In this document: positions 952-21,523 of the stretch, piece by piece
How the letters are laid out: each line of letters opens with the position of its first letter
How positions within the stretch are numbered: the first letter of the stretch is position 1
From: a virus
Virus record (IMG/VR): IMGVR_UViG_3300041402_000717
Span: 1 to 26,627 of that record
Reading direction: 5' to 3' (one strand)
Length of the DNA: 26,627 nucleotides
Program-made: the position numbers and the translations under genes
The notes under the pieces: generated by a model
The model's input: the letters and a program-made list of their open reading frames with translations, nothing else
What the model was told of the DNA's origin: nothing
Database searches by the model: none

Positions 952-1158
952 ATGTCCGACGGCGTAAAGAACACCAATATAGGAATCAACGTGGACGTGA
1001 ACGGCAAGAATGTTGTCGTCGCGTTCGATCAGAAAGTCCAGTGGATCGAGCTGAAGCCCGAGCAAGCCATCGAGCTAGCCTATGCTATCTATGAGAAGTC
1101 ACTGAAGGCACAGGGCAAGACCAGCAGCGTCATATTGATACCGAGGCTGGACGGATGA
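952..1158 (+). CDS. hypothetical small phage protein (68 aa)
   Basis: A 68-residue protein with a beta-rich N-terminal half (INVDVNGKNVVVAFDQKVQWIEL) and a C-terminal helix (EQAIELAYAIYEKSL). The layout resembles the 59-aa protein just upstream: strands, then an Ala-rich helix. AGAGAGA lies about six bases before the ATG. The stop overlaps the start of the acyl carrier protein gene (ATGA), so the two are probably translationally coupled. I do not recognise a family. Confidence 0.7.
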   Translation: MSDGVKNTNIGINVDVNGKNVVVAFDQKVQWIELKPEQAIELAYAIYEKSLKAQGKTSSVILIPRLDG

Positions 1159-1394
1159 ACAGAGCTGACATACAAAAAATAATTATCGATATTCTCGAGA
1201 AGGAAATGGGTCTGGTAGATGGAAGCGTCGCCCTAGATCAGACTCGTGAAAGCTTGGGCTTGGATTCATTGGATGACTTTGAAATACTCATGTGGATCGA
1301 GGAAGAGTGTGGTGTAGATATTCTCGATGAAGAATGGGTAGCATTAACAACGGTCAGTGACATGGTCGAACTGGTAGCGGGGAAGATATTATGA
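1155..1394 (+). CDS. phage-encoded acyl carrier protein
   Basis: A 79-residue acidic protein with the full four-helix pattern of an acyl carrier protein. The signature LGLDSLDDFEI puts Ser38 of Asp-Ser-Leu at the usual 4'-phosphopantetheine attachment site, and IEEECGVDILDEEW matches the conserved recognition helix II and following loop of bacterial AcpP. Length equals that of E. coli AcpP (78 aa). ACPs carry acyl chains as thioesters in the cytoplasm and need a phosphopantetheinyl transferase; none is visible here, so host AcpS would have to act. It overlaps both neighbours by ATGA, placing it in an operon with a Tat-signal-like protein. The family call is firm; the viral role is unknown. 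Confidence 0.88.
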   Translation: MNRADIQKIIIDILEKEMGLVDGSVALDQTRESLGLDSLDDFEILMWIEEECGVDILDEEWVALTTVSDMVELVAGKIL

Positions 1395-1881: not shown

Positions 1882-2004
1882 ATGTGCGAGACGCCATCGA
1901 TATTGAGTTTGTTTGTTATATGTGGATCAGTAGCTATATACATAGGTTTCGTTGCATTTATTAATTACTGGTTTGTGTTGAGAGATGAGAAGCAATGCCT
2001 ATAG
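1882..2004 (+). CDS. small single-pass membrane protein (40 aa)
   Basis: A 40-residue open frame with one clear hydrophobic span (SLFVICGSVAIYIGFVAFI, about residues 9-27), a polar N-terminus (MCETPS) and a charged C-terminus (RDEKQCL). It follows the previous stop after one base and overlaps the small terminase start by 10 bases. GAGGGA at 1865-1870 is a distant Shine-Dalgarno site. Small one-helix peptides near lysis or packaging genes can be spanins, holins or membrane modulators, but nothing here singles one out. Confidence 0.5.
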   Translation: MCETPSILSLFVICGSVAIYIGFVAFINYWFVLRDEKQCL

Positions 2005-2555
2005 CTAGAGACGAATACGGACTATCCCCAAAGGAACGCGCTGTAGCTGACCTGTATAGGGCTGGTCCTGATGAAGTGAGGGGGAATGCTACGCTCTGTT
2101 ATATGCAGATACATCCCAGGGCGAAGAGAACATCGGCTAGTGCAATGTCATGTCGCATGTTAAGAAAGGTCAAGATAAAGACATATCTGGAGTTGATGGC
2201 CAAAGAAGCTGCGAAGGAAGCCAGCATTGACGCCGCCTGGTTACTGAAAAGACTGGCCGAGGAATGCACCGCTGACCTGGCTGACATCTACCACGAGGAC
2301 GGATCACTCAAGCCAATACATAGCTGGCCGAAGATCTGGAGACAGGGCCTGGTGGCTGGTCTTGATGTAGATCAAAAGCTCCTGTCCCAGGACGGCGTGA
2401 AGATTCCCGATGGCTACATTACCAAGATCAAGATTTCTGACCGGGCCAAACGATTAGAGATGCTGGGTAAGCACAAATCAGTCCAGGCATTCGAAACTGA
2501 GCAGATCCAGGTGGGTGTTGCTGTTTATATTGAAGGAAAGGATGCACAGGCATAA
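1995..2555 (+). CDS. terS: terminase small subunit
   Basis: A 186-residue protein resembling the small terminase family that recognises phage DNA for packaging. The N-terminal part (LSPKERAVADLYRAG... and the following ~50 residues) fits the DNA-binding region, and SIDAAWLLKRLAEECTADLADIYHEDG marks the central part. The segment SLKPIHSWPKIWRQGLVAGLDV followed by KIKISDRAKRLEMLGKH is very typical of this family. It would act as a ring with the large terminase, which here starts about 3 kb downstream rather than immediately after. The start overlaps the small membrane protein frame; GAGAAG lies just upstream. Confidence 0.85.
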   Translation: MPIARDEYGLSPKERAVADLYRAGPDEVRGNATLCYMQIHPRAKRTSASAMSCRMLRKVKIKTYLELMAKEAAKEASIDAAWLLKRLAEECTADLADIYHEDGSLKPIHSWPKIWRQGLVAGLDVDQKLLSQDGVKIPDGYITKIKISDRAKRLEMLGKHKSVQAFETEQIQVGVAVYIEGKDAQA

Positions 2556-2630
2556 CGATTTTTAATAACCTGCGGCACTAAAGGCTTGCAGGAAACACGC
2601 GGACGGTTAGCCGTCTGGTTGATTTATTTG
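2556..2630 (+). other. intergenic stretch with two hairpins before the cassette insertion point
   Basis: No gene. Two stem-loops are visible: CCTGC 2569-2573 with GCAGG 2588-2592, and GGACGG 2601-2606 with CCGTCT 2611-2616 around a TTAG loop, followed by a T-rich but imperfect tract. They could form a weak terminator for terS. The stretch ends at G2630, the putative recombination point for integron-type cassette insertion. Confidence 0.4.
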
Positions 2631-2970
2631 TTAGCTGATTTGTGGCTACATAGGAGAGTAAAATGACTACATGTAACGGTATTGGATGTTCTGCTGAAAA
2701 CGGGCATGGTCACTCTGTAGAGTGTGAGGTTGCACATAGTGCATGGGTGTTTAGAGGAGCTGGGAATAGAAACCCAGAGGCGAGGTACGCCGGGTATAAA
2801 GAACGCCCTCTTCATAAAAATGCGAACAATGACCAAAGGTCTGCATGGCTTGAGGGATATAAAGCAAGGGAAGGCTGGAAGATATACAGCTAACGTTGAG
2901 TTCAGCGGGCGGCTGGAAAACAACAACGACAAAGCGCCGGAACTTGACCCGCTCCGACTGCAACGCTTTG
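2631..2970 (+). mobile_element. integron-type gene cassette 1 (Rmf/CrpP-like gene plus attC)
   Basis: A 340-bp unit with the organisation of an integron gene cassette. It begins right after a G with TTAGCTG, holds one gene with a short leader and its own Shine-Dalgarno site, and ends with an attC-like site. The bases just after the gene (CAGCTAAC, 2887-2894) are the exact reverse complement of the cassette's own first bases plus the preceding G (GTTAGCTG, 2630-2637), as expected when a circular cassette opens at G/TT. A second cassette follows immediately at TTATGAGC. No integrase gene or attI site is visible, so insertion would have been by a host integron integrase acting in trans. Confidence 0.75.
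2663..2893 (+). CDS. Rmf/CrpP-like small protein on a cassette
   Basis: A 76-residue protein with two parts. Residues 1-27 are Cys/His-rich (CNGIGC...GHGHSVECEVAH) and could bind a metal. Residues 36-72 (NPEARYAGYKERPLHKN... then NDQRSAWLEGYKARE) resemble the ribosome modulation factor/CrpP pattern, in which two aromatic-glycine helices flank an Asn-rich turn. Rmf dimerises ribosomes; the role of the phage or cassette versions is not established. AGGAGAG lies about six bases before the ATG. The TAA stop is inside the R'' box of the attC site, a common arrangement in integron cassettes. Family assignment is tentative. Confidence 0.6.
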   Translation: MTTCNGIGCSAENGHGHSVECEVAHSAWVFRGAGNRNPEARYAGYKERPLHKNANNDQRSAWLEGYKAREGWKIYS

Positions 2971-2976
2971 TTATGA
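2888..2976 (+). other. attC recombination site of cassette 1
   Basis: The site runs from R'' AGCTAAC (2888-2894) to R' GTTATGA (2970-2976). Between them are two arms: GTT/CAG/CGG/GCGG (2900-2912), pairing with CCGC (2949-2952), CCG (2954-2956), CTG (2958-2960) and AAC (2962-2964). This gives 13 pairs interrupted only by three extra bases, T2953, A2957 and C2961, all on one arm. TAAC/GTTA closes the outer stem, and five unpaired bases on each side (2895-2899, 2965-2969) form a central spacer. This reproduces the known attC plan: R and L boxes, unpaired spacer, same-strand extrahelical bases (G and T among them on the bottom strand) and a variable terminal loop. The crossover would be between G2970 and T2971. 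Confidence 0.78.
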
Positions 2977-2992
2977 GCAAACGAGAGCTAAA

Positions 2993-3724
2993 ATGATTAA
3001 ATTAATACAAGGCGATTGCCTAGAAAAGATGAGTGAAATACCAGACGGCACGGTGGACATGATTTTAACTGACCCGCCCTATGGCACGACTGCCTGCAAA
3101 TGGGATAGTGTGATACCACTAGAGCCAATGTGGGCGCAGTTGAAGCGTGTGATTAAGCCTAACGGAGCTATTGTTATGACAGCAAGCCAGCCGTTTACCG
3201 CCGCTCTAATAATGAGCAACCCGAAGATGTTTAAGTATGAGTTAATTTGGCTTAAAGATAAGCCTACAGACCCGCTAAATGCTAAAAAAAGAGTTATGAA
3301 GTACCATGAGAACATTTGCGTTTTTTATAATAAGTTACCAGTGTATAACCCACAGCGCGAACTAAGGGACAAGGACAATAAAAGGAATAATAAGCCAAGA
3401 GAGTTTAATTCTGCGGTAAATAATGAGTGGAAAACTAAGGATAGCAATACATTGCAAATGAATCAGGGGAGTTCTGATTACATATACCCGAAGTCAGTTA
3501 AGAAATTCAACATGCAAAGAGGGCTACACCCTACACAAAAACCAGTAAGCCTAATGGAATACTTGATAAAGACTTACACTAATGAAGGTGAGACCGTGTT
3601 GGACTTTACAATGGGGAGTGGAACTACGGGCGTTGCCTGCGTGAATTTAGGAAGAAAGTTTATAGGGATTGAACTGGATGAAGATTATTTTAATATTGCG
3701 AGTGAGCGAATTTTAGGCTCATAA
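2993..3724 (+). CDS. DNA adenine/cytosine N-methyltransferase (N6/N4 type)
   Basis: A 243-residue amino-methyltransferase. The catalytic motif IV, DPPYG, is at residues 27-31. The S-adenosylmethionine-binding motif DFTMGSGTTG is near residues 203-212, followed by FIGIELDEDYFNIA. The order (catalytic motif first, AdoMet site last) fits the beta class of N4-cytosine/N6-adenine enzymes. The middle (about 95-175) is Lys/Asn-rich and probably the target-recognition region. Phages use such orphan enzymes to protect their DNA from host restriction. No partner endonuclease is present. The gene is AT-rich relative to its neighbours and sits on the second cassette. A GAGAGCTAAAATG start resembles that of the cassette 1 gene. 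Confidence 0.9.
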   Translation: MIKLIQGDCLEKMSEIPDGTVDMILTDPPYGTTACKWDSVIPLEPMWAQLKRVIKPNGAIVMTASQPFTAALIMSNPKMFKYELIWLKDKPTDPLNAKKRVMKYHENICVFYNKLPVYNPQRELRDKDNKRNNKPREFNSAVNNEWKTKDSNTLQMNQGSSDYIYPKSVKKFNMQRGLHPTQKPVSLMEYLIKTYTNEGETVLDFTMGSGTTGVACVNLGRKFIGIELDEDYFNIASERILGS

Positions 3725-3725
3725 C
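3717..3725 (+). repeat. R''-like inverted repeat of cassette 2
   Basis: GCTCATAAC is the exact reverse complement of GTTATGAGC at 2970-2978, and the match extends to 11 bases if the neighbouring AA/TT is included. The TAA stop of the methyltransferase gene lies inside it. It marks where the attC of cassette 2 should begin. Confidence 0.7.
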
Positions 3726-3755
3726 AAGGGAATAGTAGGCAAAAGAAATCACCCT

Positions 3756-3768
3756 CACCATTATGGTG
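3756..3768. promoter_or_regulatory. perfect palindrome, operator-like
   Basis: CACCAT-T-ATGGTG is a perfect six-base inverted repeat with a one-base centre, in the only non-coding gap (3725-3807) between the methyltransferase and the next small gene. It could be a regulator-binding site or a remnant of the lost attC region. No promoter is obvious beside it. Confidence 0.3.
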
Positions 3769-3807
3769 CAATAACGAACAAAGACGCGCAGGCGTAGGAG
3801 TAAGGCA

Positions 3808-4065
3808 ATGAGCACATCATTAAATATTGAATTGGTAAAAGGCAACACGGCACCAAGATATACCACTGACTGGAAGCAGTTGAACCTAGACAAAGCCCTC
3901 ATCACTGAAGAAGGTATGGAGTCAAAGCTGCCACTGGTTGACTTACAGTTAACAGATAGCGACGGCAATACGCACTTCACCATGGTTAGCGGTCGTATAA
4001 TCCTTGCCTTGGCTGAGGCGATTCAGGGCGTGAACCTTCGCAATCATGGGAGCACGAACCCATGA
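3808..4065 (+). CDS. hypothetical phage protein (85 aa)
   Basis: An 85-residue protein of a type I associate with phage genomes but whose function I do not know. It has a Lys-Gly-Asn-Thr-Ala-Pro turn, then alternating strands (KLPLVDLQLTDSDG, HFTMVSGRIILALAEAI) suggesting a small beta-rich fold. AGGAG at 3796-3800 is seven bases before the ATG. It begins a string of genes linked by ATGA overlaps that runs to the J-domain gene. Confidence 0.75.
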   Translation: MSTSLNIELVKGNTAPRYTTDWKQLNLDKALITEEGMESKLPLVDLQLTDSDGNTHFTMVSGRIILALAEAIQGVNLRNHGSTNP

Positions 4066-4385
4066 GTGGCGACTCAGAGCCAAAAACATGCATGACCGAT
4101 GGCGCCGAAGTTACCGATGATCACCGCGACCTGAAGGAGAATGGCCAACAGAAGGGTTACGTCGTGCTCTGCCCTGAAGAAAGGGCGAAGGGTTACGTGA
4201 GACCATTGCGCCAGACTTATATCCACACCGAGTGCGGTGGTGAAACTACCATGAGTATGGAGATCGCCGAAACTTATGCCCGTAATCCTAAGTTTTATGG
4301 CGCCACTTTCTGTGTTCAGTGTCGTAATCATTTTTCTCTGGGCCAGTTCACTTGGAAGGGCACTAATGAGTTGGTTGGGTCATGA
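4062..4385 (+). CDS. hypothetical phage protein with possible zinc site (107 aa)
   Basis: A 107-residue protein. From about residue 32 it has the pattern GYVVLCPEERAKGYVRPLRQTY, then HTECGG and, ~30 residues on, FCVQCRNHF. The spaced HxxC and CxxC pairs suggest one bound zinc. I recall similar phage proteins of unknown function with this ERAKG...RP...C...ETYARNPKFYG layout. It overlaps both neighbours by four bases (ATGA), so translation is coupled. Confidence 0.75.
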   Translation: MSGDSEPKTCMTDGAEVTDDHRDLKENGQQKGYVVLCPEERAKGYVRPLRQTYIHTECGGETTMSMEIAETYARNPKFYGATFCVQCRNHFSLGQFTWKGTNELVGS

Positions 4386-4585
4386 GCACCGATGCTGAGC
4401 TAAAAACCTGCGAGCTCATAATACTGGGAGCAATCAGCAAAGCATCCGATGACGAACAGGCCGCAATTAAATCAGCCAGAGTTGCTATCGACGATCTGAT
4501 CTGCCAGATGGATAAGACATTTGATACCGATGCCGTCAGTTACGCATTGTCTCTGGCGTACATTGATAGGATGAAGAAGCAATGA
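4382..4585 (+). CDS. hypothetical small helical protein (67 aa)
   Basis: A 67-residue acidic, mostly helical protein (AELKTCELIILGAISKA, DEQAAIKSARVAIDDLICQM, DAVSYALSLAYIDRM). It has no recognisable domain. It overlaps the preceding gene and the J-domain gene by ATGA, so it is probably made together with the J-domain protein and may work with it. Confidence 0.65.
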   Translation: MSTDAELKTCELIILGAISKASDDEQAAIKSARVAIDDLICQMDKTFDTDAVSYALSLAYIDRMKKQ

Positions 4586-5172
4586 CCGATCCATACGAAG
4601 AGCTTGGCCTGAGTGGCGACGCATCCGATGAAGAGGTCAAGAAGAAGTTCAAGCAGCTGGCTAATATCCATCACCCGGATAAGCCCGGCGGCGATGAGGA
4701 GGCCTTCAAGAAGCTGAAGGCTGCCTACGAAGCGATCGTTGGTGGTGCCAAGCCTGACAACCTGGAAGCTGATGCCATGGCCAGGCTGCACGATTGCTTT
4801 GATCAGATGCTAAACCAAGTTGATCCATTCACTGTAGATATCGTAGAGCAGGCGACCGGTGCAATTCAAACCGCACTGGCTGACCTCATAGAAAGTCTGG
4901 CAGATGCTAAATCACAGCGTAAGAAGTTTAAGAAGCTGGTCGGCAAAATGAAGACCAAGACCGTGGTCAATCTGTTTGAGCTGCTGATCTTTGATAAGAT
5001 CGTGGTGCTGAACAAAGGGATTGAGCGTACCGAACGTGATATCAAGGTACTGACCCGGATGCTGGCACTGTTGAAAGACTATGAGTACAGCTACGAGTCA
5101 CCGATAGATCGATTCTCTACTGGTGTTGGAGTAAGTCGACCCAGCGGTAGTGGATGGGCTCACCTTTCGTAA
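4582..5172 (+). CDS. J-domain (DnaJ-like) co-chaperone
   Basis: A 196-residue protein whose first ~55 residues form a J domain: DPYEELGLSGDASDEEVKKKFKQLA, the essential HPD triad at 31-33, then EEAFKKLKAAYEAI. The HPD loop in J proteins stimulates ATP hydrolysis by DnaK/Hsp70. The remaining ~140 residues lack the Gly/Phe and zinc-finger regions of full DnaJ and read as long helices (FDQMLNQVD..., LADAKSQRKKFKKLVGKM), probably a client- or virion-specific domain. It lies between the two terminase genes, so it may recruit host DnaK to packaging or head assembly; that is inference. It overlaps the upstream gene by ATGA. Confidence 0.88.
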   Translation: MTDPYEELGLSGDASDEEVKKKFKQLANIHHPDKPGGDEEAFKKLKAAYEAIVGGAKPDNLEADAMARLHDCFDQMLNQVDPFTVDIVEQATGAIQTALADLIESLADAKSQRKKFKKLVGKMKTKTVVNLFELLIFDKIVVLNKGIERTERDIKVLTRMLALLKDYEYSYESPIDRFSTGVGVSRPSGSGWAHLS

Positions 5173-5190
5173 TGATAAAGGAGATGGCTA

Positions 5191-5634
5191 ATGTCGAATG
5201 ACGGGGAAATAATTTATAAGTGCTGCCCTATTTATGGGGATAGCCTAAATAGCGTATGCAGCAGAGGAACAAAGGGCTGCGTCGAAGATCATAGCGAGGC
5301 TCATACTCTTTCCGAGCTAAACGAATCCTTGCTGGCGCAGGTAGAGGAATTGCGTGTATGTGAGCCTTGTCCGTGCGGGGATGTTGGTTTCTTTGTCGTG
5401 CCAAACAATTACAATGGCGAGCCAGAGCAAGAGCAATGCGAACACTGTTATACGAATCCAAAATCAAGATTCAACGCGCTAAATAACACCTCTCAGCAAT
5501 CCCTGAACTCACTCAAGGCCGCTACAGAGCAATCAACGATCTATTACGTGGTCAACTATCTCAGGGGAGAAGGTTATAACCATGAAGACATTCTTTACGC
5601 TATTAGAAACATTCCCCGCAAGCACCAAACATGA
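5191..5634 (+). CDS. hypothetical Cys-rich phage protein (147 aa)
   Basis: A 147-residue protein. The N-terminal third carries scattered cysteines (YKCCPIYG, VCSRGTKGC). A central zinc-ribbon-like block follows (CEPCPCGDVGFFVV ... QCEHCYTNPKSRFN), then a helical tail (TIYYVVNYLRGEGYNHEDILYAIRNI). Zinc-ribbon proteins of this size are common accessory genes in phages and include anti-restriction candidates, but there is no specific match I can defend. AAGGAG lies before the ATG, and the stop overlaps the terL start. Confidence 0.65.
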   Translation: MSNDGEIIYKCCPIYGDSLNSVCSRGTKGCVEDHSEAHTLSELNESLLAQVEELRVCEPCPCGDVGFFVVPNNYNGEPEQEQCEHCYTNPKSRFNALNNTSQQSLNSLKAATEQSTIYYVVNYLRGEGYNHEDILYAIRNIPRKHQT

Positions 5635-7076
5635 CAGAAACAATAGCCGAGTCAGTCGAAAAGATTAAGGAAGAGTTCAAGCTCACCGTAGCACAGGATC
5701 ACGCCAGAGATATGCTGATCTCTGACGCGGTTCATTGCTGCTTGGGGGGTGGTTCTCGATCTGGCAAAACTTTTCTCCTTGTAAGAATGATAGTGATTCG
5801 TGCACTGAAGGCGCCCGGCTCCAGGCATGCAATCTTCCGCTTCCGATTCAACGCTATTAAGGCCTCGATCATCTATGACACGCTCCCGAAAGTCTTCGCC
5901 CTGTGTTTTCCTGGTCTGTGGAATCCCAAGTCTCTTAACAAAACTGATTGGTTCTACAAGTTCGATAATGGATCCGAGATATGGTTCGGCGGACTCGACG
6001 ATAAAGAGCGTACAGAGAAAATCCTGGGCCAAGAGTACGTTACACTTTACTTCAACGAGACCTCCCAGATCCCTTGGGCATCACGAGTGCTCGCCATGTC
6101 TCGACTTGCACAGAAGGTCAAGGTCTCCTCGGTCCAGGGACAGCCGGACACGTACCTGAAGCTCAAAGCCTACTATGACTTGAATCCGAGCTCCAAGAAT
6201 CACTGGGTGTATCGCGTTTTCATTGAGAAGAAAGACCCGATCAGTAAGCAGGAACTTAACCGTCCATTCAACTACGCCTACTACAAGATCAACCCGATCG
6301 ACAATCTGGAGAACCTGAGTGACGAATACATTCATGAGCTCGAGGATCTACCGGTCAAGGCTAGAAGGCGATTTCTTAACGGTGAGTTTGAAGATGATGA
6401 GAACGGCCAGCTGTGGACCATTGAGCTTCTGGAGCAAAATCGAGTACTGGGTCAGAAGGGAACATTGCCAGACTTTCTCCGTGTCGTTATTGCCGTTGAT
6501 CCGTCGGGCTGTACCGGTGCCGAAGACTCCAGGTCCGATGAGATTGGTATCATGGTTTGCGCGTTGGGCACTGATAACCACGGCTACCTAATTGAGGATC
6601 TATCTGGCAAGTACAGTCCTGAAACATGGGGGCAGATTATAGTCGCAGCTTACGAACGGCACAGCGCTGACCGAGTTGTTGGCGAAGTAAACTATGGTGG
6701 CGACATGGTTCGAGCCGTAGTTCATGCGGTGGATAATACGGTACCGTTTAACGCTGTGACCGCCTCCAGGGGTAAGGTTGTTCGAGCACAGCCCATCTCA
6801 ACTCTGTACGAAATGAACAAGATTCATCACATTGGTTACTTCCCAGAGGTTGAAGACCAGATGTGTTCTATGACACAATCGGGATATCAAGGCATAGGAT
6901 CACCCGACAAAGTGGATGCAGCTGTCTGGGGGTTCACTGAATTGTTCCCTGGAATGACAAAGAAGGCCGGGGTTAAATGGACGGCTCCTGCGGTACATAC
7001 CAGCAAAAGGTCGTCCTCGAGGTTTGAGAACAACTCACGGGCTAGACCCACTGTTAAGCGAAACCGGAGATACTAA
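5631..7076 (+). CDS. terL: terminase large subunit (packaging ATPase/nuclease)
   Basis: A 481-residue motor that pumps and cuts DNA during head filling. The Walker A loop GGGSRSGKT is at residues 39-47. A hydrophobic strand ending in the Walker B-type acidic residue (VTLYFNETSQIP) lies near 135-147. The C-terminal nuclease is marked by VIAVDPSG near 286-293 (first metal-binding Asp), GEVNYGGDMV near 350 and KVDAAVWGF near 427-435. The size fits the family. The C-terminal tail (about 445-481) is basic and low in complexity, which suits portal docking. It overlaps the upstream gene by ATGA and is followed by a short linker protein and the portal. Confidence 0.95.
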   Translation: MTETIAESVEKIKEEFKLTVAQDHARDMLISDAVHCCLGGGSRSGKTFLLVRMIVIRALKAPGSRHAIFRFRFNAIKASIIYDTLPKVFALCFPGLWNPKSLNKTDWFYKFDNGSEIWFGGLDDKERTEKILGQEYVTLYFNETSQIPWASRVLAMSRLAQKVKVSSVQGQPDTYLKLKAYYDLNPSSKNHWVYRVFIEKKDPISKQELNRPFNYAYYKINPIDNLENLSDEYIHELEDLPVKARRRFLNGEFEDDENGQLWTIELLEQNRVLGQKGTLPDFLRVVIAVDPSGCTGAEDSRSDEIGIMVCALGTDNHGYLIEDLSGKYSPETWGQIIVAAYERHSADRVVGEVNYGGDMVRAVVHAVDNTVPFNAVTASRGKVVRAQPISTLYEMNKIHHIGYFPEVEDQMCSMTQSGYQGIGSPDKVDAAVWGFTELFPGMTKKAGVKWTAPAVHTSKRSSSRFENNSRARPTVKRNRRY

Positions 7077-17886: not shown

Positions 17887-19476
17887 ATGTCAAAGATCCC
17901 AAGTTATATAAATATCAAACAGGATACCCCTGATCTTCGCCATGAGGTTGAGTCAGGCGCTCCTGCACGTGCCGGACAGGGCGTAGCCAAGGGCCTGATG
18001 GACGTATCAAGAACAGTGGGTGCCTACCAGGAAACTGTCGACAAGGAGGAATTTGCCAAGGCGAAAACTAACTTCATGATCGACCTGGTTGCTAATAATG
18101 AAGAAATCAAGAGCGATCCAGATTACGCCACACACCTGGATAAGTACGACAAAAGCGCCAGCGAGACCCTTGCCAGCCAGTCCGGTACCATCGGCAGCCA
18201 GAAATACAGGACCGCTTTCGAGCAGGATGCGCGACTTCAGATCGCCCAGGACCGCGAGCAACTTTCTAATGTGGTGACCGCTAAAAAGAACGAACACGAC
18301 GTCGCTGACTTTTTAACCAGATCATCAACAGCAGCAGACGCTGCTGTTCTAGGTGGTGGTGACAAGATTCTTCAGACTAGAGACAGCATCAACATGGAGG
18401 TCGACTCACTGGTAGAGCGAGAGGCTATGAGTCCAGTCGAGGGTGTTAAGTTTAAGAAAGACTTCATGAATGGTGTCGCGCTGAGACACATCAAAGCGCT
18501 CCCTTACGATCAGCAGGCCGCCGCCATCAACGAACCCTGGGCAATCACTAATCTGCCGGAAGATGTTCGCCTGAAGCTCTTACGCGAAGCCGAGGAAGAA
18601 ACGAACAAAGCCGAAGCCACTACCATGGTGGATGAATATCTTGATAATGAATTAACCTACGACGAAGCCAGAAAGCAAGCCAAAAAGGACACAAAAGGTA
18701 AGCCCGGGCTGCGTAAAGTGGCTGATGGTCATCTGGATTACGAGTACAACCGTCGCAGTAAGGCCGATGCTCAGGTTCAGTCAGACCTGTTCGACAATTA
18801 TTATGGAAATATAGCGCTCGGCAAGGCCACTGTGGAGCAGGTTAATGCTGAAGACTGGGTTGAGATGACGCCGGAAATGCAAAGGAGCTTGATCGCTGCA
18901 CAACGGTCTGCCGTGTCGGATAAAAAGACTGGCTATAATTTAGCCGCTGACGATCATCTCATGCTGCTCACTAAGCAGAAGAAGTTCATCGAAGCCAGAA
19001 ACTACTTTACTGAGAACGCTTCAGACATGAGTCAGGCTCAGCAGAACGAGTGGTCAAAGCTTACGATCGAGGGTTTAACTCCAGAGCATAAGGGTCCGTT
19101 CAATGCTAGGCAGATGGTCCAAGATAGTACCCCAAAATATAGCAAAGAGCAGCGTGGACCGATCTACGAGGAAATTACCGAATGGTTCATGGATGTCCAG
19201 CAAAGCACTGGTGCCGATCCCACTGACAAAGAGGTCAAGGAGCGCATCCAGTCCGTCATTCTCAAGTACGACACGAGTTGGTGGTGGGGCGGTACCAAGT
19301 CCATGGTTGATATGGATGAGAGTGAGAAAAACTCAGTCATGGCCGATGCCAAGGAAGAGGACCCGGATACATTCGACAAGGTTGCCGAGTACTTTAAGAG
19401 GATCGGAGCTCAGCCTGATCAGGCTGATTACATGCGAGCCTATACTGTTCTGAGGGATAACCAGAGTGTTGAATGA
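17887..19476 (+). CDS. internal virion protein C-like (T7 gp15 position)
   Basis: A ~529-residue, charged, mostly helical protein with coiled-coil-like stretches, in the place of T7 gp15 (internal core protein, 747 aa). The start MSKIPSYINIKQDTPDLRHE... is preferred at 17887; a GTG at 17872, right after the previous stop, would add five residues, and neither has a good Shine-Dalgarno site. Segments such as KEEFAKAKTNFMIDLVAN, LLREAEEETNKAEATTMVDEYL and FKRIGAQPDQADYMRAY suggest repeated helical bundles. A Trp-rich WWWGG near residue 464 is odd. It would be ejected and form part of the channel spanning the cell envelope. Confidence 0.65.
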   Translation: MSKIPSYINIKQDTPDLRHEVESGAPARAGQGVAKGLMDVSRTVGAYQETVDKEEFAKAKTNFMIDLVANNEEIKSDPDYATHLDKYDKSASETLASQSGTIGSQKYRTAFEQDARLQIAQDREQLSNVVTAKKNEHDVADFLTRSSTAADAAVLGGGDKILQTRDSINMEVDSLVEREAMSPVEGVKFKKDFMNGVALRHIKALPYDQQAAAINEPWAITNLPEDVRLKLLREAEEETNKAEATTMVDEYLDNELTYDEARKQAKKDTKGKPGLRKVADGHLDYEYNRRSKADAQVQSDLFDNYYGNIALGKATVEQVNAEDWVEMTPEMQRSLIAAQRSAVSDKKTGYNLAADDHLMLLTKQKKFIEARNYFTENASDMSQAQQNEWSKLTIEGLTPEHKGPFNARQMVQDSTPKYSKEQRGPIYEEITEWFMDVQQSTGADPTDKEVKERIQSVILKYDTSWWWGGTKSMVDMDESEKNSVMADAKEEDPDTFDKVAEYFKRIGAQPDQADYMRAYTVLRDNQSVE

Positions 19477-21523
19477 TGATGAAGTTGGCCTGCTTGACAA
19501 AGCCTTTGCTGCGCCTGACATAGGCGCCTCGCTCGACAAGGCTTCGCATATAGATCCAGATCTTTTTGCTGAGAGCAGAAACGCTCCAGTATCCAGTGAG
19601 TTCTACGCCGACACCAAGCCGGAGATTGATCGCCAGAAGAAGGTGGCCGACATGAATATCCCGGACATCAAGGCCAACTATCCGAGCACCACAAAGTTTC
19701 TCGAGAAGGATGACAATGCCGCTATGGCTAGCGACGATCTCGATGTTCTTAAAGGAATGGAGGGTGCTGTTCGTGACAAAAAGAAAGGATTCTTTGGCCT
19801 CAGAGCTGATGATATTGAGCGCGGCTTTGCTGCACTAAGGCGGACCGGTAATTATATGCAGGCCGACGACTCAATGAACGACGTTTCTCAAATGGCCGTA
19901 ATTGAAGAAGATAAACCTGAAAACCGTATTGACCTTGTTCGAGCCCTTGCAAAGAGAGGGATGGCAACCGGGAGCACTTTTAATGTTGATCGGTACATTG
20001 AAAGCACACCAGAAGAACGCGAAATAATGAGGTCAGAAGCTTATAATAAGCTGGCCGACATCTCTGGCAGCATTGCAGCAAGAACCGCTGAAATTGAATC
20101 CATTCCCCATAGCCAGGCTGTTGAAAAGTTCTTTCAGTCAAAAGGCTGGGGGGCTGGCCTAAGCGCTGTCGCTGAAGATCCGCTTGAAGTGATTACCAGC
20201 ATTGCTACAGAATCATTTGTCCAGTTTGCCCCCGCCCTTCCATTAGCTCTGGTTAGTGGTGGACTGGGTGGTCTTGGTGCTGGGATGACTTCGTTCTCGA
20301 TGGAGTATGCCGGGGATATTATCGGCTCTATGCAAGAGGCCGGAATTGACGTCAAAGATAAGGACGCCATGCTGGCAGCCTTTGTGGATACAGATCAAAT
20401 GAGCTTATGGAGGAGTCATGCTGTTAAAAAAGGCATCCCAATAGCGTTACTTGATGCTCTTTCTGTCGGGGTTGGTGGTGCTCTAGTTGATGTGGCAAAA
20501 ACCCCGGTGAAGAAAGCCGTGGCCGGAGCTGTTGAGGCATTTGCTGTTCAGCCTGCACTGGGCGGTGCCGGTGAAGTGCTTGGTACTCTTGCCGCTGGCG
20601 ACGAGATCGATCCGGTCAATGTTCTTGCTGAGATCTTCGGTGAGTTCGCTACCGGTCCAGTTGAGGTAGCTGCAGGCGTATACAGACAGGCCCGTGTTGC
20701 TTCTGAGGTGAAATCATTTAAAAACGGCATGGAATCTATTGGAGACCAGCAGTTTCTCGAGTCTGTTGTCGAGTACGCCCAATCAAGTGCGGTCAATGGT
20801 CGCGCCCCTGAAGTGTACGCAGAATTCATCGACAGTCTGGACGAAGGTCGAGAAGTACTTATTCCCGAAGAAGTGGCAGCCCAGCTCGAAGGCGCACCTG
20901 AATACATTACCGAACAGTTAAATGGTCTTGGTCACAGCGTCAGCATTCCGCTCAAGGTGTTCGCTAGCGAGATAGCTAAGAATGAAATCTGGATGGAGAC
21001 CGTCCGACCTCATGTCAAGTTAAGTGAAAACACGATGACCATGGAAGAGTTGTCGACCAATGAAAACGCCGAGATGAAATCACTGCTCGAGAAGGCCAAC
21101 GTCCAGCAGGAAACAATGACCGAGGTCGAGGAGATCTACGAACAGGTCAAGGATCAGCTTGTTTCCACCGGTAAGCAGAGTGAATCTACGGCCCGTCAGA
21201 GCGCTCAGCTATACCCGGCGACTGTTGCTGTATATATCGAGAAAGCTCGCAAGATGGGTAAGGAGATCTCGCCCACCGAGGTGTTTGCGATGATGGGCTT
21301 CCAAGTAAAGTCAGATCTGCCTGCTCCCGGGCCTACTGAGGGTGAGCTTATTGTTGATCAGGCTGGAGAGAAAGTTATTCCTGCTGATACTGAGATCGAG
21401 ATGGACACTACCGACGTGCGTACTGGCGAAGTCACCACCGAGACCTATAATGCAGCTGAGATATCGACTGAGATCAATGATAATATCTCAACCTATGAAC
21501 GACTGAGAGATTGCCTTGCATAA
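19466..21523 (+). CDS. giant internal virion protein, N-terminal portion
   Basis: A 685-residue protein starting at GTG (19466) with GAGGG nine bases before. It overlaps the preceding gene by 11 bases. It is acidic and helical at first. Gly/Ala-rich hydrophobic segments (FAPALPLALVSGGLGGLGAGM near 252; GIPIALLDALSVGVGGALVDVA near 325; VEAFAVQPALGGAGEVLG near 352) suit membrane insertion during DNA ejection. The end NDNISTYERLRDCLA then meets a TAA, while a similar DCL block reappears 2.3 kb on at the start of the next large gene. It therefore looks like the first part of a single large protein, akin in place to T7 gp16, cut by the fibre genes. Confidence 0.75.
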   Translation: MLNDDEVGLLDKAFAAPDIGASLDKASHIDPDLFAESRNAPVSSEFYADTKPEIDRQKKVADMNIPDIKANYPSTTKFLEKDDNAAMASDDLDVLKGMEGAVRDKKKGFFGLRADDIERGFAALRRTGNYMQADDSMNDVSQMAVIEEDKPENRIDLVRALAKRGMATGSTFNVDRYIESTPEEREIMRSEAYNKLADISGSIAARTAEIESIPHSQAVEKFFQSKGWGAGLSAVAEDPLEVITSIATESFVQFAPALPLALVSGGLGGLGAGMTSFSMEYAGDIIGSMQEAGIDVKDKDAMLAAFVDTDQMSLWRSHAVKKGIPIALLDALSVGVGGALVDVAKTPVKKAVAGAVEAFAVQPALGGAGEVLGTLAAGDEIDPVNVLAEIFGEFATGPVEVAAGVYRQARVASEVKSFKNGMESIGDQQFLESVVEYAQSSAVNGRAPEVYAEFIDSLDEGREVLIPEEVAAQLEGAPEYITEQLNGLGHSVSIPLKVFASEIAKNEIWMETVRPHVKLSENTMTMEELSTNENAEMKSLLEKANVQQETMTEVEEIYEQVKDQLVSTGKQSESTARQSAQLYPATVAVYIEKARKMGKEISPTEVFAMMGFQVKSDLPAPGPTEGELIVDQAGEKVIPADTEIEMDTTDVRTGEVTTETYNAAEISTEINDNISTYERLRDCLA

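Follow-up and report, generated by a model that had tools for sequence, protein, structure and literature searches.

A Phage Late Operon with a Probable Integrase-Less Pair of Integron Cassettes Whose Genes Run against Their attC Sites

Introduction

Clusters of attC sites lacking an integrase (CALINs) have been described in the virulent phages TJE1, P12002L, and PH101 (Qi et al. 2023, PMC9892861), where such clusters carry methyltransferases and where five of six tested sites recombine; of P12002L, that study says only that its attC sites are of divergent direction. Unusual orientations are known from bacteria in two other forms. The sRNA-Xcc1/symE unit of Xanthomonas is a single inverted cassette in a bacterial integron (PMC12444791), and in the reverse integrons of Treponema and others it is the intI gene that is turned round (PMC3607928, PMC6557892). 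In the literature searched outside subscription journals, no report was found of back-to-front cassettes as a phage feature, or of ORFs opposite to their attC sites in phages.

Here, these systems are compared with a locus on a virus contig (IMG/VR record IMGVR_UViG_3300041402_000717; 26,627 bases, possibly a fragment), the whole of which is referred to as the window. With a probability of about 90%, the locus consists of two genuine integron cassettes without an integrase, inserted in a phage late operon between the small terminase gene, terS, and the genes that precede the large one, terL. Like the published phage CALINs, it combines attC sites in the absence of an integrase with a methyltransferase as cargo in a small array. 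Unlike in TJE1, where the ORFs run with their own attC sites, both ORFs here point the other way.

Results

Phage Setting of the Locus

Pfam and PHROG identify small and large terminase subunits, a head-tail adaptor, capsid, and tail proteins on the contig, which places the locus in a phage late region. No tyrosine recombinase or integron integrase was found in the 26.6 kb contig, possibly a partial record, and no intI gene, the mark of a complete integron, adjoins the array within it. A sequence-only reading had proposed an attC site inside a phage packaging module and no integrase close to it, and for this contig both points are supported. An acyl carrier protein-like gene (1155-1394, plus strand; PF00550, E 4e-8) lies upstream of the terminase genes, and at 19466-21523 (plus strand) lies the gene for a 685-residue protein in which an LPD22 (large polyvalent protein) domain was recognized (E 2e-10). 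Between the cassettes and terL are five more small genes (3808-5634, plus strand), of which one (4582-5172) encodes a DnaJ domain (E 1e-12) and the remaining four match no Pfam or PHROG family; this stretch is absent from terminase relatives.

Table 1. Coordinates of the terminase gene, the cassettes, and their attC sites in the window
Feature	Position	Strand	Details
terS (terminase small subunit)	1995..2555	+	Pfam Terminase_2, E 9e-16
terS stop TAA	2553-2555	+	left boundary of the array
attC of the 76-aa-ORF cassette	2549..2637	-	score 10.3, second-best in window; cassette-end match
Its boxes	R'' 2637-2630; R' 2556-2549	-	R'' CAGCTAAC; R' GTTATGCC
Its arms	L'' 2624-2610; L' 2576-2564	-	extra bases 2621 and 2614, in L''
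Its predicted crossover	between 2555 and 2556	-	
Cassette 1	2556..2893, 338 bp	- (attC orientation; ORF on +)	delimited by GTTAGCTG at 2630 (+) and 2887-2894 (-)
76-aa ORF	2663..2893	+	against own attC; stop TAA 2891-2893 at crossover
attC of the methyltransferase cassette	2887..2978	-	score 13.0, best site in window
Its boxes	R'' 2978-2970; R' 2894-2887	-	R'' GCTCATAAC; R' GTTAGCTG
Its arms	L'' 2964-2949; L' 2912-2900	-	extra bases 2961, 2957, 2953, in L''
Its predicted crossover	between 2893 and 2894	-	
Cassette 2	2894..3724, 831 bp	- (attC orientation; ORF on +)	delimited by GTTATGAGC at 2970 (+) and 3717-3725 (-)
N6/N4 DNA methyltransferase, 243 aa	2993..3724	+	Pfam N6_N4_Mtase, E 1e-35
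Right boundary	3717..3725	-	cassette start G/TTATGAGC; no folded attC beyond

Two Adjacent attC Sites on the Minus Strand

Candidate sites were scored by a custom procedure that looks for AAC...GTT boxes, spacers of 4-7 nt, and an arm with bulges permitted in the left arm only. The scorer had first been tried on known integrons with bulges permitted on either side, and its calibration set comprised the Vibrio phage record MK672802, the Shewanella prophage MZ568829, and the P1 phage MH445380 with class 1 integrons. In the calibration sites, the extra bases are confined to L'' (as in GTTcAAGCCGaCCGCG and CAGtCAGtGCGaCATT), and TAACAA is present in 21 of 22 known sites, the lone exception being a class 1 site with TAACAG.

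When both strands of the window were scored, the two top structural matches were two neighboring sites on the minus strand (Table 1), 250 bp apart, which, together with the absence of intI, is the arrangement that defines a CALIN (at least two close attC sites). Both have R'' and R' boxes of the form TAAC/GTTA, with an AAC/GTT core and complementary flanks. The stronger site (GTTgCAGtCGGaGCGG) has TAACAA, spacers of five bases on each side, and 13 pairs; its three extrahelical bases all belong to L''. The sequence-only reading had described the same structure, and its anatomy is confirmed: TAAC (2891-2894) and GTTA (2970-2973) close it, the spacers are 2895-2899 and 2965-2969, and the arm that pairs 2900-2912 with 2949-2964 is interrupted only by T2953, A2957, and C2961, on one strand. 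The second site (AATcAACCAGaCGGC), which that reading had overlooked, has 12 pairs, two extra bases, and spacers of five and seven bases. The R' boxes GTTAGCT and GTTATGC are each one base off the consensus GTTRRRY, which counts against the attC reading; among the known arrays examined, GTTATGC and similar R' boxes are found as well. Shewanella, Vibrio, and class 1 cassettes share with the window TAACAA, the spacing of the extra bases in L'', and matching cassette ends.

Cassette Boundaries and Genes

In known integrons, the first 8-12 bases of a cassette are complementary to R'' in the attC that belongs to it. Each R'' in the window is the exact complement of the other end of its own cassette, over 8 and 9 bases. 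GTTAGCTG occurs in just two copies in the window, at 2630 (plus strand) and 2887-2894 (minus strand), and GTTATGAGC in just two exact copies, at 2970 (plus strand) and 3717-3725 (minus strand). An end match of 8-9 bases is by itself not unusual in shuffled sequence (mean 0.61 versus 2 observed); its weight comes from its exact placement. All three boundaries, those after terS, the 76-aa ORF, and the methyltransferase gene, lie directly behind TAA stops (TAA/C). terS itself was considered as a further cassette and rejected, GTTATGCC being found only at the terS stop.

The methyltransferase is also recognized by PADLOC as a type II methyltransferase (E 1e-81); its ORF runs against its own attC and ends at the crossover (stop TAA, 3722-3724). 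The GC content of its cassette is 0.42, versus 0.50 in terS and terL. The 76-aa ORF has two distant viral homologs and matches no Pfam or PHROG family, so that the label "Rmf-like" given to it earlier is unsupported. In distant terminase relatives, terS runs straight into the next large gene with no insert at this point. The search for an empty site yielded no near relative that has one, which counts against the cassette reading, and returned no relative of the product of the gene at 3808.

Controls for Chance Occurrence

In 60 shuffles of the whole window, matches scoring at least 10 occurred 0.37 times per window and those scoring at least 12 occurred 0.017 times, with none at 13. TAACAA, GTTA, a score of at least 10, and a cassette-end match coincide in the window only at these two sites. 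None of 300 shuffles reproduced the combination; control phage DNA totalling 605 kb contained it once, on L018, a short phage contig that has a genuine array. There, at 1972-3440, a methyltransferase homolog is accompanied by two more cassettes, with attC sites on the minus strand and ORFs on the plus strand; one R' core, at the stop of the preceding ORF, has apparently decayed (GCTAGCTG).

A pattern built from the left half of one site (site 1; 19 fixed bases) gave four matches in 257 Gb of bacterial genomes, where about two would be expected by chance as estimated from the size of the collection. Two of the four fold as full attC sites, and two of the bacterial genomes with a match carry integron integrases above the curated cut-off. 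Rfam returned no match.

Present Mobility, Orientation, and Other Readings of the Hairpins

The alternative that fares best accepts the cassettes and denies their mobility: ordinary recombination would have brought them in from an array of a bacterium or phage, leaving the sites as relics. The lack of an integrase on this contig favors such a dead array, as does the result for 21 records with similar arrays, none of which has an integron integrase above the cut-off, although one shows a partial match. Competing folds point the same way. The attC fold lies above the free-energy minimum by 4.4 and 6.9 kcal/mol, the latter being the cost of forcing it at 2887-2978 on the plus (bottom) strand; the values for control sites are mostly 0-2.6, with one of 10.8. 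Since a free strand has a fold more stable than that of attC, activity may be low or lost. Folding the bottom strand had been suggested earlier as a check; the free fold of either strand differs from the attC fold. On the other hand, full arms, spacers, and ends are kept at both sites, and in other phages attC sites have been shown to recombine on a par with a bacterial control (PMC9892861). Loss of mobility is a serious possibility, somewhat short of an even chance.

A second alternative, the orientation originally proposed, places the attC on the plus strand with a G/TT crossover at G2970, so that the ORFs would run in the usual direction, towards their attC sites. Plus-strand pairing gives the same helix, the cassette-end match is symmetric and suits both strands, and ordinary cassettes, too, typically have ORF stops in TAAC. 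However, the extra bases would then fall in L', unlike in all known sites examined; TAACAA is missing from the plus strand at both sites; no canonical-score match exists on that strand there; and no third attC lies behind the methyltransferase gene, where neither a GTT nor an arm is found at the right distance. Because the plus strand has the extra bases in its 3' arm, whereas known integrons carry them in L'', and because it has no site after the methyltransferase gene, the array reads on the minus strand. The plus-strand site was rejected on these two grounds and is very unlikely. The original claim of an attC at 2888-2976 is upheld in its canonical anatomy (score 13.0) and reversed in its strand. 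The minus-strand reading moves the crossover from G2970 to the position after A2893, directly behind the stop of the upstream ORF, and G2970, once put forward as the base to mutate, is the wrong base, not being at the predicted crossover.

Finally, that the hairpins are intergenic terminators or chance attC-like structures, as terminator-like stems flagged within both sites and free folds that are simple hairpins might suggest, is highly improbable given the shuffle and control statistics, the matched cassette ends, and the resemblance of a site's left half to bacterial attC sites.

Cassette Orientation in Viral and Bacterial Arrays

With the cassettes of the window read on the minus strand, gene and attC are opposed, and the frequency of this arrangement was assessed with the same scorer. 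Among unambiguous cassettes, 25 ran opposite to and 24 with their attC in viral contigs, versus 2 and 62 in bacterial arrays (Fisher p = 1.6e-9); the viral contigs, so named by their IMG/VR label, had mostly been gathered by attC patterns and are biased towards certain attC types, and the bacterial arrays were those adjoining integron integrases, integrase-less bacterial clusters not forming a separate class. Orientation was called by ORF length, which left 23 of 72 viral cassettes unclear and makes the 76-aa cassette of the window ambiguous owing to a spurious 70-aa frame on the opposite strand. Counted by the majority within each array, the ratio of opposite to same is 16/18 in viral and 0/18 in bacterial arrays (p 3e-4). 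Nine records that are phage isolates or encode phage-family or phage-like proteins contain 11 opposite and 4 same cassettes. The stop codon falls exactly at the predicted crossover in 19 of the 25 opposite viral cassettes.

A second bacterial group, with arrays on the other side of intI, gave seven same and one opposite cassette, or six, one, and two unclear on a stricter reading; opposite cassettes are few regardless. Four loci in the phylum of G004 (L307, L309, L313, and L314) have arrays only on the far side of intI and are reverse integrons. The genome of L099, taken as a third control group, contained no integron integrase. By these counts, back-to-front cassettes are frequent in contigs of phages but rarely seen in integrons of bacteria.

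DNA methyltransferases are a frequent cargo of opposite cassettes, as in the window, P12002L, L147, L158, L198, and L210, and methyltransferase homologs in L018 and L027 adjoin partial cassette ends. The partial integrase match noted above (E 1e-27, 56 residues) lies on the L210 contig (G295:C1:11899-12060), which also has a back-to-front methyltransferase cassette; in view of this match, part of that contig may be bacterial. Back-to-front cassettes form longer series in phage early regions encoding Erf, HNH, NinG, and RecE-like proteins (L115, L126/L140, and L127). Relative to the phage operon, opposite-type genes run 12 with and 5 against, and same-type genes 10 with and 6 against, weak support for the idea that cassette genes follow the operon direction, which was set aside.

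Discussion

As judged from sequence, the locus is a real phage-borne cassette array. The model proposed here would have an integron integrase, supplied by the host and acting in trans, insert the cassettes at an antisense G/TTA, a secondary site formed by the terS stop (TAA/C). Insertion at this point would leave terS intact, and the operon would gain units that bring start signals of their own. The predicted empty site reads ...GGCATAA/CAAGGGAATAG... (GGCATAACAAGGGAATAG). The cassette genes would be read together with the phage operon; a scan of 1900-5700 showed no sigma-70-type promoter. The methyltransferase, made alongside the phage proteins, would modify phage DNA against host restriction, and it probably protects that DNA, as has been proposed for phage-borne methyltransferase cassettes (PMC9892861).

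In chromosomal and class 1 integrons, unlike in the window, an integrase is close by and the ORFs follow the direction of their attC (62 of 64 calls). Reverse integrons share an unusual direction inside an integron, but their ORFs still mostly run with the attC, as in seven of eight cassettes in the bacterial arrays analyzed here. In the single inverted cassettes of bacteria (V. anguillarum, MK672802; Xanthomonas), the ORF also opposes the array. The inverted methyltransferase gene of V. anguillarum likewise stops at the R' core; as a relative of the window methyltransferase it was rejected, the two being unrelated. Such cassettes are rare exceptions in bacterial integrons, whereas in the phage-confirmed contigs analyzed here they are commoner than the same-direction type. 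By our own scan, the P12002L methyltransferase cassette is also back to front.

Methyltransferase-bearing CALINs with functional attC sites have already been published from phages; what appears to be new, in the literature searched, is the direction of the ORFs, opposite to attC. Tentatively, and with the odds somewhat against it, phages may carry a distinct mirror-image class of cassettes, in which the gene opposes its attC, the TAA stop coincides with the crossover, and host integrases append cassettes, often methyltransferases, behind the stop of an operon gene without breaking that gene. If the mirror arrangement is general, phages would gain genes behind existing stops by means of an integrase that they do not carry, and methyltransferases against restriction would be a recurrent cargo. 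It would also be relevant to the questions of cassette origin and of cassette transfer between bacteria and phages.
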